Source: Zestosphaera sp. (GTDB lineage: Archaea; Thermoproteota; Thermoprotei_A; Sulfolobales; NBVN01). Taken from it: DNA of 64,000 nucleotides. The stretch lies in contig JAVYVJ010000001.1 of NCBI GenBank assembly GCA_038727705.1, forward strand, positions 345,924-409,923, given 5' to 3'. Shown here in pieces: positions 2,603 to 54,714 of this stretch (position 1 is the stretch's first letter; the number at the start of each line of letters is the position of its first letter). The notes beneath the pieces are model-generated. The model did no database searches. It had not been told where the DNA came from and was given only the letters and a program-made list of their open reading frames with translations. Both the position numbers and the translations under genes were made by a program.

Positions 2603-2929
2603 TTGGGAAAGAAGAAAATTGGGGAGGTCTCCGAGACCCCTTACCCCAACCCTGAGGAGGGAACTGTAGTTTGCGTAGTTACCGAACCTATGGGCGGAAA
2701 CTACATGAAAGCCGTATGCATGGATGGGAAGGAACGTAAGCTAAGAATACCTGGTAAACTCAGGCACAAGGTATGGATAAATGTGAAGGACGTTGTTCTA
2801 GTGGGGAAGTGGGAGTTCGATGAGAGCAGAGGTGATGTGCTGTACAAATACAGCCGGGATGAGAGGAAAAAGCTCATTGAAGGAGGTTTTCTAGAACCCT
2901 CACTGATTGAGAGCGCTGGTGAACTCTGA
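2603..2929 (+). CDS. Translation initiation factor 1A (aIF1A)
   Basis: S1-like OB-fold factor that binds the ribosomal A site and helps position the initiator tRNA. The 108-aa protein has a basic N-terminus (MGKKK), the OB strands GTVVCVVTEPMGGNYMKAVC and RKLRIPGKLR, and the family's WINVKDVVLVG and ELIEGGFL-like tail (KLIEGGFLE). The TTG start at 2603 follows GGTGA at 2594-2598. It lies 8 nt after nmd3. The last codons overlap the ribosome-binding site of the RIO1 kinase gene, which begins at or next to this stop codon. Confidence 0.95.
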   Translation: MGKKKIGEVSETPYPNPEEGTVVCVVTEPMGGNYMKAVCMDGKERKLRIPGKLRHKVWINVKDVVLVGKWEFDESRGDVLYKYSRDERKKLIEGGFLEPSLIESAGEL

Positions 2930-3756
2930 TATCGGACAGGGGGTCTGAGGACTCGGTCGTTGATGCTACCCTCAGGTTTAGAGATAAGGAACGTAAGTTA
3001 ATAGATGAGGATCTCTTCGAGACTGTGGAGGAGGTCTTTGACAGAGCGACTGTTCAGGCAGTCCTTAAGTTGATGAGGAGAGGCACCATATCTGCCCTTA
3101 AGGGCGTGGTCAGCGCTGGCAAGGAATCCAGAGTCTACTGGGGGACGAATTCTAGAGGGAGTGATCTCGCCATCAAGATCTATCTAACATCCTCCGCTGA
3201 GTTCAGGAGGGGCATGATCAAATACATAGTTGGTGATTACAGGTTCGACAAGAATGTCCCTAAATCCACAAGAAAGCTAGTTACTCTGTGGGCTAGGAAG
3301 GAGTTCAATAATTACGTGGATCTATACAGGGCAGGCGTCTCAGTTCCTGAACCTATAGATCAACATGAGAATGTGTTGGTCATGGAGTTTATAGGTGAGG
3401 GCGGGGTCAGGGCTCCGTTGCTGAAGGAGGCGGTCCTAACCCGTGATGAGTATGAGAGAATGTTCAACTCTATAGTTGAGGACCTTCGCAAGGCGTACGT
3501 CAGGGCGAGGCTCATACACAGCGACTTAAGCGAGTATAACATAATGGTTTGGAACAGCAAGCACTACATAATAGACGTTAGTCAGGCAGTGCATGTAACC
3601 CATCCCAACGCCATGGAGTTGCTCAGAAGGGATGTAAGCAACATAGTAAGGTTCTTTGAAAAGGAGGCCGGTATTGAGGTACCCCCGCAGGAGAGCATAT
3701 TGAAGTATGTGACAAGCATGTCAAGCGATGTGAGAGATCAATTCGTGGAGTTTTAA
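2929..3756 (+). CDS. RIO1-type serine/threonine protein kinase, probable AUA start
   Basis: Atypical kinase/ATPase needed for small-subunit maturation. Visible are the flexible P-loop STGKES-like GVVSAGKESRVYWG, the RIO signature with the AVKIY-type lysine, the catalytic loop IHSDLSEYNIMVW and the metal loop IIDVSQAV. The first standard start is GTG at 3025, but the in-frame sequence upstream (RDKERKLIDEDLFETVEEV) matches the conserved N-terminal helix of archaeal RIO1. Nothing between the in-frame stop at 2920 and base 3025 is ATG, GTG or TTG. GGTGA at 2918-2922 stands exactly 6 nt before ATA at 2929, the spacing used by dim2. I therefore annotate ATA as start; CTG at 2926 is the alternative. 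The kinase call is firm, the start is inference. Confidence 0.85.
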   Translation: MSDRGSEDSVVDATLRFRDKERKLIDEDLFETVEEVFDRATVQAVLKLMRRGTISALKGVVSAGKESRVYWGTNSRGSDLAIKIYLTSSAEFRRGMIKYIVGDYRFDKNVPKSTRKLVTLWARKEFNNYVDLYRAGVSVPEPIDQHENVLVMEFIGEGGVRAPLLKEAVLTRDEYERMFNSIVEDLRKAYVRARLIHSDLSEYNIMVWNSKHYIIDVSQAVHVTHPNAMELLRRDVSNIVRFFEKEAGIEVPPQESILKYVTSMSSDVRDQFVEF

Positions 3757-3858
3757 GTCCTCTTGTTTACTTAGGATTAAGGTGATGGACAATACGAGGT
3801 AACCAAACCTTACACACCGCGAAGAGACCCTCATCCCATCAACCACAGGTGATTCAAA

Positions 3859-4458
3859 TTGGGTGACTCAAGTAGATCGACACATAGCTTGGCAAGAATC
3901 TATCTAAGAGTCAGACCCGAGAGGCTCGGCGTCCTCATAGGTGAGGAGGGCAAGTCTCTGAAGGAGTTGGAGAATAAAACTCAGACCGTAATAACTGTCG
4001 ATAGCGTGAACAGCAACGTCGTCATAGAGGCCGCAACCCCGAGGACCCCCGCCGACATGTTGCTGAGGGCCTCGGACTTCATCAAAGCTGTTGATTCAGG
4101 ATTCAATCCTGAGAAGGCATGGAGACTCCTCGAAGAGGACACTATCCTAGTGTTGATTAATCTTAAAGAGGTGGTCGGGGATGCACCGAACCACCTATAC
4201 AGGGTCAAGGCGAGGATCATAGGCGAGGAGGGCAGGGTTAGGGCAAACATAGAGCAACTGACGGGAAGCGATATAAGCGTGTACGATGATGTAGTAGCTA
4301 TCATAGGGGATTATGAGGGCGCTTACCTGGCTAGAGAGGCTGTCGAGATGATTGTCCAGGGGAGGGAGCACTCCACGGTTTACAAATACCTAAACAGGAG
4401 AGCCCGTGAGTTAAAACGTAAAAGATTAACTGAGTACTGGAGAAAAGAAGGGTTCTGA
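3859..4458 (+). CDS. KH-domain RNA-binding protein Dim2/Pno1 (Krr1-like)
   Basis: Archaeal Dim2, a two-KH-domain protein that binds the 3' end region of 16S rRNA during 30S maturation and partners with RIO kinases and Nob1. KH1 has the GxxG loop in VLIGEEGKSLKELE (about residues 25-38). KH2 has RIIGEEGRVRANIE (about 114-127) followed by SVYDDVVAIIG. The tail is strongly basic (RRARELKRKR). The TTG start at 3859 lies 6 nt after GGTGA at 3848-3852. The RIO1-Dim2 order is conserved in archaea and agrees with joint action in small-subunit biogenesis. Confidence 0.93.
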   Translation: MGDSSRSTHSLARIYLRVRPERLGVLIGEEGKSLKELENKTQTVITVDSVNSNVVIEAATPRTPADMLLRASDFIKAVDSGFNPEKAWRLLEEDTILVLINLKEVVGDAPNHLYRVKARIIGEEGRVRANIEQLTGSDISVYDDVVAIIGDYEGAYLAREAVEMIVQGREHSTVYKYLNRRARELKRKRLTEYWRKEGF

Positions 4459-4567
4459 AAGCCGTCGAACCCCCTGCGCCCTAAGTTTCTAGGGTATCTG
4501 GACTCCCTGAGAGTGGGGAGGGTTACGGCTAATTTTCGTCGAGGTTAGGAGCCCGTTCTCTCTTATG

Positions 4568-4697
4568 TGGTGGGCCCGGGGGGACTTGAACCCCCGACCT
4601 ACGGGTCTCTCACCAGGTTTTCCCTATCATCCCTTTTCGGTCTTCAGACCCGTAGAGGACTGGAGCCCGCCGCTCTGCCTAGCTGAGCTACGGGCCC
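4568..4697 (-). tRNA. tRNA-Trp (CCA) with a 53-nt intron
   Basis: The minus strand folds as a tRNA with acceptor GGGCCCG/CGGGCCC, D stem GCTC/GAGC, anticodon stem GCGGG/CCCGT, T stem GGGGG/CCCCC, A73 and an encoded CCA (4568-4570). The spliced loop is CT-CCA-GA, so the anticodon is CCA. A 53-nt intron (4607-4659) sits at the canonical 37/38 site. The predicted central helix CTCC/TGAG has only three of four pairs, so the bulge-helix-bulge is imperfect. The intron holds a stretch (CTACGGGTCT) perfectly complementary to 10 nt of the 3' exon and ends in a CTGA box. See findings. Confidence 0.92.
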
Positions 4698-4773
4698 ACC
4701 TCCGCTCATCATTAATCAAATACTCACTAGAGCTTTTAAATGCTTCCCCACAACTACTTTGGTGGTATGGTTC

Positions 4774-53072: not shown

Positions 53073-53920
53073 GCCTTAGAAAAGCGGCGGTGGCCGGTTA
53101 TTTCTATGAGGGGAAAAGAGAAGAGCTGATCAGAAGGATTGAGTGGGCATATACCCATAGCCCAGGACCTGGCGTTCTCCCCAGAGTTTCCGATACCAGG
53201 AATAAGGAGAGCTTGGGTTTCATAGTACCGCACGCTGGCTACGTGTACAGTGGGCCTGTGGCTGCGCACTCTTACGCCAAGATGGCATCGGAGGGCAGAC
53301 CTGACGTGTTTGTAATGCTGGGTCCTAACCACACAGGAGTTGGCGAGGCTGTATCTGTTTGGGATGAAGGTGCCTGGGAAACCCCATTAGGTCGCGTCGA
53401 CGTTGATGTAGAGTTAGCCAGGAGGGTAATTGAGAACTCGCAATACGCTAGGTCGGATAAGCTGGCACATTACGAAGAGCACTCTATCGAGGTGCAGCTA
53501 CCGTTTCTACAGCATCTATTTAGAGATGTGAAAATAGTGCCTATATCGATAATGTATCAAGTGCCTGAAGTGGCTAAGGATCTAGCTACCGCGATCCTTA
53601 AGTCCGTGACTGAGTTAGGTAGGGACGCCGTCATCATCTCAACCACTGACTTAACTCACTATGAACCCCATGAAAACGCGATCAGGAAGGACCAGCTAGT
53701 CTTGGACAGGATTAAGGCGTTGGATCCGGAGGGTTTGTTTGAGGTGGTCCTCAGGAGGAATATCTCTATGTGCGGGGTTGCGCCAGTCATGACGCTGTTG
53801 CTTTACGCCAACCTAAGTAAGTCCTCAGGCGCTGAAATCCTTAAGTATGCTACCTCAGGAGATATTTCAGGAGATAAGTCACTTGTCGTCGGCTATTCGT
53901 CTATAAGGATCCTTAAGTAG
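53069..53920 (+). CDS. MEMO1 (AmmeMemoRadiSam B) family protein
   Basis: A 283-aa MEMO-family protein related to non-haem-iron dioxygenases. [20 protein letters not shown] at the N-terminus, [29 protein letters not shown] and [17 protein letters not shown] are conserved, including putative metal-binding histidines. The family often sits beside radical SAM and AMMECR1 genes; here it is between uS2 and isoprenoid genes, its common crenarchaeal location. Biochemical function in archaea is unresolved. Confidence 0.9.
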
Positions 53921-53970
53921 CCAATCCCTCATTTAGTCTGGTTTGCGGGTATTTAAGAGGATTGATCGTG

Positions 53971-54714
53971 ATGAAGCTTACTAAGAGTGGTTACGGATGG
54001 GTACCGCTGTTCCACATACCTATTCCTGGCAGACATAACCCACTGATAGTGTTCCCAACAACGCATGAGGTTGTTGCAGAGGCTACCCTCATCGAGGGAG
54101 GCCTCAGGGTGGAAGTCTCAGGCTCTACTGATCCAGCGTATGTAGAGGGCAGGGTTACAGCCTTTCTAAGGCATTTGTTGTCTGAGGTAGGTATGAGCGT
54201 GTCGTTGGAACTGAGGCTTAGAGCTTCTTCCGACACGCCGAGGGAGTACGCATACGTCCACGCGACAAACACGGCTCTGGAGTTGCTTGGGGGTAAGCTG
54301 GACGAGGACATAGTTGAAGCTGCTTGGCACGTGGACGTTAAGGTTGGCTTGCCGCACAGCGTCCTAGCATTGAGGAAGGCGCAGATAGTCGGCAAGCCCT
54401 ACATATGGAGGTTTGGTGAAGGCCATGTCGAGTTAGACAAGGATCTCATGGCTGAGGTGTTCAGCCGCTCGGAAGTCGCGTTTACCCTGCACACGCCCCC
54501 GCTCGCAGATTATCTAACACACTTAGCGGGGAACTGCATAGTAAACATATTTACCGGGTTGAGGGAGGGTGAAGACTTAAGCGACTTGATCAGGCTGTAC
54601 AACGCTCTGTGGTATGCAATTCACGGCGTTTACCCCCCTCACGGGGAGAGAGGATTTGGAGTGATTTTCCCGGATGCAGACAAAGCAGTAAGTGCTGAGG
54701 TGACTATTGATTGA
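53971..54714 (+). CDS. GHMP-like protein of the isoprenoid cluster lacking the ATP glycine loop
   Basis: A protein of about 247 aa in the position occupied by mevalonate-pathway kinases in related archaea, between MEMO and isopentenyl phosphate kinase. The order of elements vaguely follows GHMP kinases: IPGRHNPLIVFPTTHEVVAE, a beta region, and RASSDTPREYAYVHATNTAL (where GHMP enzymes have P-x(2)-GLGSSA-type loops). A helix LLGGKLDEDIVEAAW and a final GERGFGVIFPDADKAVSAEV follow. The glycine-rich ATP loop is missing. I do not recognise it as an active kinase. Overlaps the kinase downstream by 4 nt, so it is part of the operon. ATG at 53971 follows GATCGTG; GTG/ATT codons at 53962 are also in frame. 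Confidence 0.6.
   Translation: MKLTKSGYGWVPLFHIPIPGRHNPLIVFPTTHEVVAEATLIEGGLRVEVSGSTDPAYVEGRVTAFLRHLLSEVGMSVSLELRLRASSDTPREYAYVHATNTALELLGGKLDEDIVEAAWHVDVKVGLPHSVLALRKAQIVGKPYIWRFGEGHVELDKDLMAEVFSRSEVAFTLHTPPLADYLTHLAGNCIVNIFTGLREGEDLSDLIRLYNALWYAIHGVYPPHGERGFGVIFPDADKAVSAEVTID

Follow-up and report, generated by a model that had tools for sequence, protein, structure and literature searches.

The window, the whole 64,000-nucleotide stretch of a Zestosphaera sp. genome that was analysed, carries the gene for the initiation factor aIF1A, followed by those for the kinase RIO1 and a Dim2/KRR1-like protein. The following features bear on the start of RIO1.

2603-2929, + strand: aIF1A (PF01176, 7.9e-20; NF003082, 5.5e-37), with a TTG start at 2603, a Shine-Dalgarno (SD) GGTGA at 2594-2598, and a TGA stop at 2927-2929
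2918-2922, + strand: SD GGTGA of RIO1, within the 3' end of aIF1A; the anti-SD GGATCACCTCC is present in the genome's own 16S
2926-2928, + strand: CTG, a rival near-cognate codon 3 nt past the SD, in a CTGA overlap with the aIF1A stop
2929-2931, + strand: ATA, the proposed RIO1 start codon, 6 nt past the SD and found in 21 of 30 family genomes
2929-3756, + strand: RIO1 coding sequence, 275 aa (PF01163, 5.1e-60)
2932-3024, + strand: N-terminal coding stretch, conserved by pN/pS and invariant residues, without ATG, GTG, or TTG
3025-3027, + strand: GTG, the first canonical in-frame codon and an unlikely start
3859-4458, + strand: Dim2/KRR1-like KH protein (NF010328, 1.2e-71), TTG start at 3859; used as a control gene

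An earlier, sequence-only reading of this DNA had named the kinase gene RIO1 and proposed that it starts at AUA. The profile match bears out the name. The protein has a RIO domain, a GKE P-loop, and the motifs HxDLSEYN and IDVSQ; residues G64, K65, E66, H197, D199, S201, E202, N204, and D216 are invariant in the alignment A1, and the closest solved structures are human RIO1 and archaeal Rio1. The positions on which the AUA proposal was built are also correct. A TGA at 2920-2922, itself part of the GGTGA, closes the RIO1 frame upstream, and the first ATG, GTG, or TTG thereafter is the GTG at 3025-3027, 34 codons on. The GGTGA stands exactly 6 nt ahead of the ATA, the spacing likewise claimed for Dim2 and found there between GGTGA at 3848-3852 and the TTG at 3859. 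The 3' end of the genome's own 16S, located with an Rfam model and the genomic stretch, reads GGATCACCTCCTTT; GGTGA is thus a true SD core. Three features of the junction went unmentioned in that reading: the upstream gene is aIF1A by its profile matches, its stop shares one base with the ATA (TGATA), and the CTG at 2926-2928 is a second near-cognate candidate. Further downstream, a tRNA-like sequence with an apparent intron lies at window positions 4565-4700 on the minus strand.

We compared the locus across the window's family, a set of 31 genomes, including the window's own (G000); 30 of them, from 11 genera, have RIO1, and start codons were assigned by eye on the basis of SD spacing, overlap, and homology. 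The calls are ATA in 21 genomes, ATT in 1, GTA in 1, and a canonical codon in 6 (ATG 1, GTG 2, TTG 3); the remaining genome (G030) is ambiguous between GTG and an ATA at 5 nt. ATA occurs in 8 of the 11 genera, and GGTGA or GGTGG (GGTGR) stands 6 nt before it in nearly all ATA genomes; genus g7 has a weak SD only, and its assignment is ambiguous. Close relatives had been named as the place to look for a standard start. Within the window's own genus, ATA is kept at the homologous place in four of five genomes, the window's included, while the single exception, G003, has ATG with a shifted SD of its own (GTGA-TCCCCG-ATG). Where ATA has been lost elsewhere, GTG, TTG, ATT, or GTA stands mostly at the homologous spot, as with the GTG of L110 and L111. 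The codons in front of ATA vary between genera (ACT-CTG, GCT-TTA, GTT-CTA, TTC-TGA, TTC-TGC, TAC-TCT, TAC-CAT, TAT-GGT), and in L102 the codon immediately before it is a stop, so that ATA alone is common to these genomes.

Canonical alternatives are scarce in the same genomes. In 18 of the 30, no ATG, GTG, or TTG precedes the FETV motif of RIO1. The first canonical codon falls at query residue 120 in L093, 63 in L094, 98 in L102 and L104, 134 in L105, and 62 in L108; in these six genomes it lies inside or beyond the P-loop, and a canonical start there could give no kinase. A tree of the start state requires about 7 changes. The apparent non-canonical start is therefore conserved in the family yet not fixed. 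A weak start is widespread there and probably ancestral.

The sequence ahead of 3025 evolves as protein, in agreement with the claim that conserved RIO1 sequence extends upstream of that position. In the stretch from ATA to FETV, pN/pS ranges from 0 to 0.10 within the genera g10 and g2 and from 0.16 to 0.52 within g1, resembling the rest of RIO1, and residues D12, D26, D28, F30, and E34 are invariant. In an unbiased scan of about 464 kb, covering 361 genes, RIO1 came out on top for coding-like sequence ahead of the first canonical codon. Spacing was assessed in the same 464 kb of the 1.59-Mb genome, made up of the window and 20 other stretches. Among the spacings open to a clean test (3, 6, 9, and 12), the genome uses 6: canonical codons at GGTGA+6 open frames of at least 100 codons in 23 of 65 cases, versus 20 of 1101 for other codons (p = 1e-19). 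At GGTGA+3 there is no clear signal (4 of 47 canonical versus 39 of 1188 other codons). This usage favours ATA over CTG. Across the genome, GGTGR-N6-ATA has 129 matches versus 112 in the control, an excess small enough that AUA starts must be rare. Ile is, moreover, most often encoded by ATA here, with ATA reaching 88% in internal Ile columns; the start column, with ATA in 19 of 20, shows a mild excess over the best of these. Codon counts thus exclude only weakly that the ATA is an ordinary Ile codon, and the case for a start is made by SD spacing and overlap.

Taken together, these data make it likely, in our judgement, that RIO1 is translated from the AUA at 2929, a weak but conserved start reached by SD-guided reinitiation after aIF1A and giving little RIO1. 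Ribosomes ending aIF1A at the TGA at 2927-2929, or new 30S subunits, would be held by GGTGA at 2918-2922; this hold would set AUA in the P site, where the initiator tRNA would start less efficiently, placing methionine at a near-cognate codon. The aIF1A stop and the RIO1 start share 1 or 4 nt, as in termination-reinitiation pairs: the -1 overlap (TGATA or TAATA) occurs in genera g1, g2, g8, and g10, and the -4 overlap (ATAA, ATAG, or GTAA) in g3, g4, g5, and g7, with GTAA in L108. Such overlaps couple translation tightly in Haloferax (PMC10666635), and AUA starts in Staphylococcus aureus yield about 10% of AUG (PMC13009471). Genomes with TAATA, TGATA, or ATAA are one A-to-G substitution away from an ATG that would leave aIF1A unharmed; the rarity of that substitution suggests that the weak start is being retained. 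Selection would presumably keep it since the cell needs far less of RIO1, a catalytic assembly factor, than of aIF1A.

Beyond the family, the survey extends over the order; a class-level search brought almost no genomes from outside it. In 16 of 60 sampled genomes of other families, RIO1 has no canonical codon before FETV. RIO1 begins with CTG-GGN in 7 of 7 clear genomes of f7 (L207-L213, several complete), with CTG 6 nt past GGTGG in 3 of 3 genomes of f10, and with CTG at the aIF1A TAG in 4 of 18 genomes of the Ignisphaera family; CTG also appears as the start in two genomes of f8 and in part of f2, and GGTGR-7-ATA occurs in two genomes of f4. The sampled genomes of f3, f5, f9, and f11 start RIO1 with ATG, GTG, or TTG. 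At the same loci, the control gene Dim2 is without a canonical start in 1 of 94 cases and aIF1A in 11 of 137; the latter represent six distinct genomes (L087, L095, L109, L165, L166, and L171), where CTG or ATA follows the SD with no ATG, GTG, or TTG. Apparent non-canonical starts are thus concentrated on the aIF1A-RIO1 pair, chiefly on RIO1.

A rival reading keeps the same AUA start but gives its weakness a function as a sensor: RIO1 synthesis might track start-codon stringency, that is, the level of aIF1/aIF1A, much as infC does with IF3. We regard this as a reasonable but tentative possibility, somewhat doubtful at present. It fits the placement of RIO1 directly after aIF1A in the family, the recurrence of the non-canonical state with AUA, CUG, AUU, and GUA in different lineages, and the CTG or ATA start of aIF1A itself in six genomes. 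Sulfolobus aIF1, as cited in PMC6237735 and PMC8211752, discriminates against non-canonical starts, and infC of S. aureus itself starts with AUA (PMC13009471). Against it, several families use ATG, GTG, or TTG for RIO1, and at least one unrelated gene, coding for a DUF58 protein, keeps an ATA as well; the feature therefore reaches beyond translation genes. Extended to the order, and put forward with the same reserve, the idea is that the aIF1A-RIO1 operon might act as a stringency sensor, in which weak, exchangeable starts let initiation accuracy set small-subunit maturation. Such a sensor would parallel infC autocontrol in archaea, having evolved independently on another gene.

The remaining alternatives dispute the AUA start itself. 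Initiation at the CTG at 2926, in the CTGA overlap, has precedents in the apparent CTG starts of f7, f10, and parts of f2 and f8, and L087 also has CTG at that place. We nevertheless reject it as unlikely on spacing and relatives: this genome makes scant use of a 3-nt distance from GGTGA, and most relatives have TTA, CTA, TGA, TGC, TCT, CAT, or GGT at that position while ATA stays.

Initiation at GTG 3025 or another canonical codon downstream would leave the preceding stretch untranslated as RIO1. In this genome, considered by itself, such a start would still leave the kinase fold complete, since the fold prediction gives residues 1-34 low confidence (pLDDT about 42); that same low confidence makes the prediction unhelpful in deciding the matter. 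The equivalent codon is GTA, GTT, or GTC in most relatives, the first canonical codon comes as late as residues 62-134, the upstream stretch is under coding selection, and the SD at ATA is conserved. A start at 3025 is therefore rejected as very improbable.

Still less probable is that RIO1 arises solely as part of an aIF1A-RIO1 fusion, through frameshifting or stop-codon readthrough. In four genomes of the Ignisphaera family (L166, L169, L171, and L173) the two genes do share one frame, with a single TAG between them, and a readthrough fusion is possible there. The TAG is followed by CTG in L166, L171, and L173 and by CTA CTG in L169. In the window and in most genomes of its family the two genes lie in different frames, and there we reject a fusion; the SD and its exact spacing would serve no role in one, and no slippery heptamer was seen by eye at the aIF1A-RIO1 junction. 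A sequencing or assembly error can be dismissed as scarcely credible: most of the surveyed genomes are metagenome-assembled, and single-base errors occur in such data, but the same ATA stands in 21 independent genomes, and non-canonical (CTG) RIO1 starts occur in the complete single-contig genomes L169, L200, L207, L209, and L210.

Non-canonical starts exist elsewhere in the window's genome but are rare. The scan led by RIO1 also pointed to the DUF58 gene and to a class-V aminotransferase gene. The DUF58 gene (L157:10097-11401, minus strand; G000:C1:656097-657401; also L223-L227) reads GGTGCC(T/G)AGACC-ATA with an ATAG or ATAA overlap in 5 of 5 genus genomes, two of which have no canonical codon for more than 20 codons; by its sequence it is likely a second conserved AUA start. 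In the aminotransferase gene (L143, minus strand, near 2310; G000:C1:39039-40310), ACG occupies the position at which two congeners carry ATG or GTG; it could be a genuine ACG start or an erroneous base. A homoserine-kinase-like frame, VKAPASIANLGPGFDIL, at L243:14535 on the plus strand has no canonical start for 39 codons. Within the window, the frame at 53916-54710 on the plus strand has GTA in a -4 overlap (GTAG) and its first canonical codon at codon 15, a possible non-canonical start.

Returning to the AUA start of RIO1, the earlier remark that archaeal AUA initiation has been little described agrees with a review (PMC8211752), and we found no literature on Rio1 with aIF1A, Crenarchaeota CTG starts, Ignisphaera starts, or archaeal pre-30S Rio1. 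The genomes indicate a gene-specific, family-wide non-canonical start directly after the gene for initiation factor 1A, with CUG in its place in other families. This makes it testable whether archaea use start-codon stringency as a regulatory input. There is also a practical consequence, in that gene callers limited to ATG, GTG, and TTG would leave RIO1 shortened or misplaced across dozens of genomes.

The locus can be set beside several known systems. As a protein, the window's RIO1 resembles archaeal Rio1 (PDB 1zp9) in its full RIO domain and its catalytic and P-loop residues, and is unusual in its start codon alone. Termination-reinitiation pairs of Haloferax and Escherichia coli (PMC10666635) likewise show overlaps of -1 and -4 nt; their starts are canonical as a rule, in contrast to the TAATA or TGATA and ATAA or ATAG of aIF1A-RIO1. 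S. aureus ccpN and citZ likewise combine AUA with a good SD, and the AUA of ccpN is conserved (PMC13009471), but these are bacterial metabolic genes whose starts were demonstrated by ribosome profiling and reporters, whereas the start of RIO1 is read from sequence. The nearest likeness is to bacterial infC, the gene for IF3, which has an AUA start in S. aureus (PMC13009471) and an AUU start in E. coli (Butler et al. 1987, as listed in PMC9845219). In both cases a gene belonging to the translation apparatus combines a conserved near-cognate start with a strong SD, and RIO1, like infC, has no usable canonical start, the usual SD spacing, and a non-canonical state kept across species. The differences are that RIO1 is archaeal, encodes a maturation kinase and not a factor that checks start codons, and sits downstream of, and overlapping, aIF1A; autocontrol is hypothetical in its case. 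The family-wide pattern at RIO1 suggests that archaea, as some bacteria do, may deliberately retain weak start codons on certain genes.
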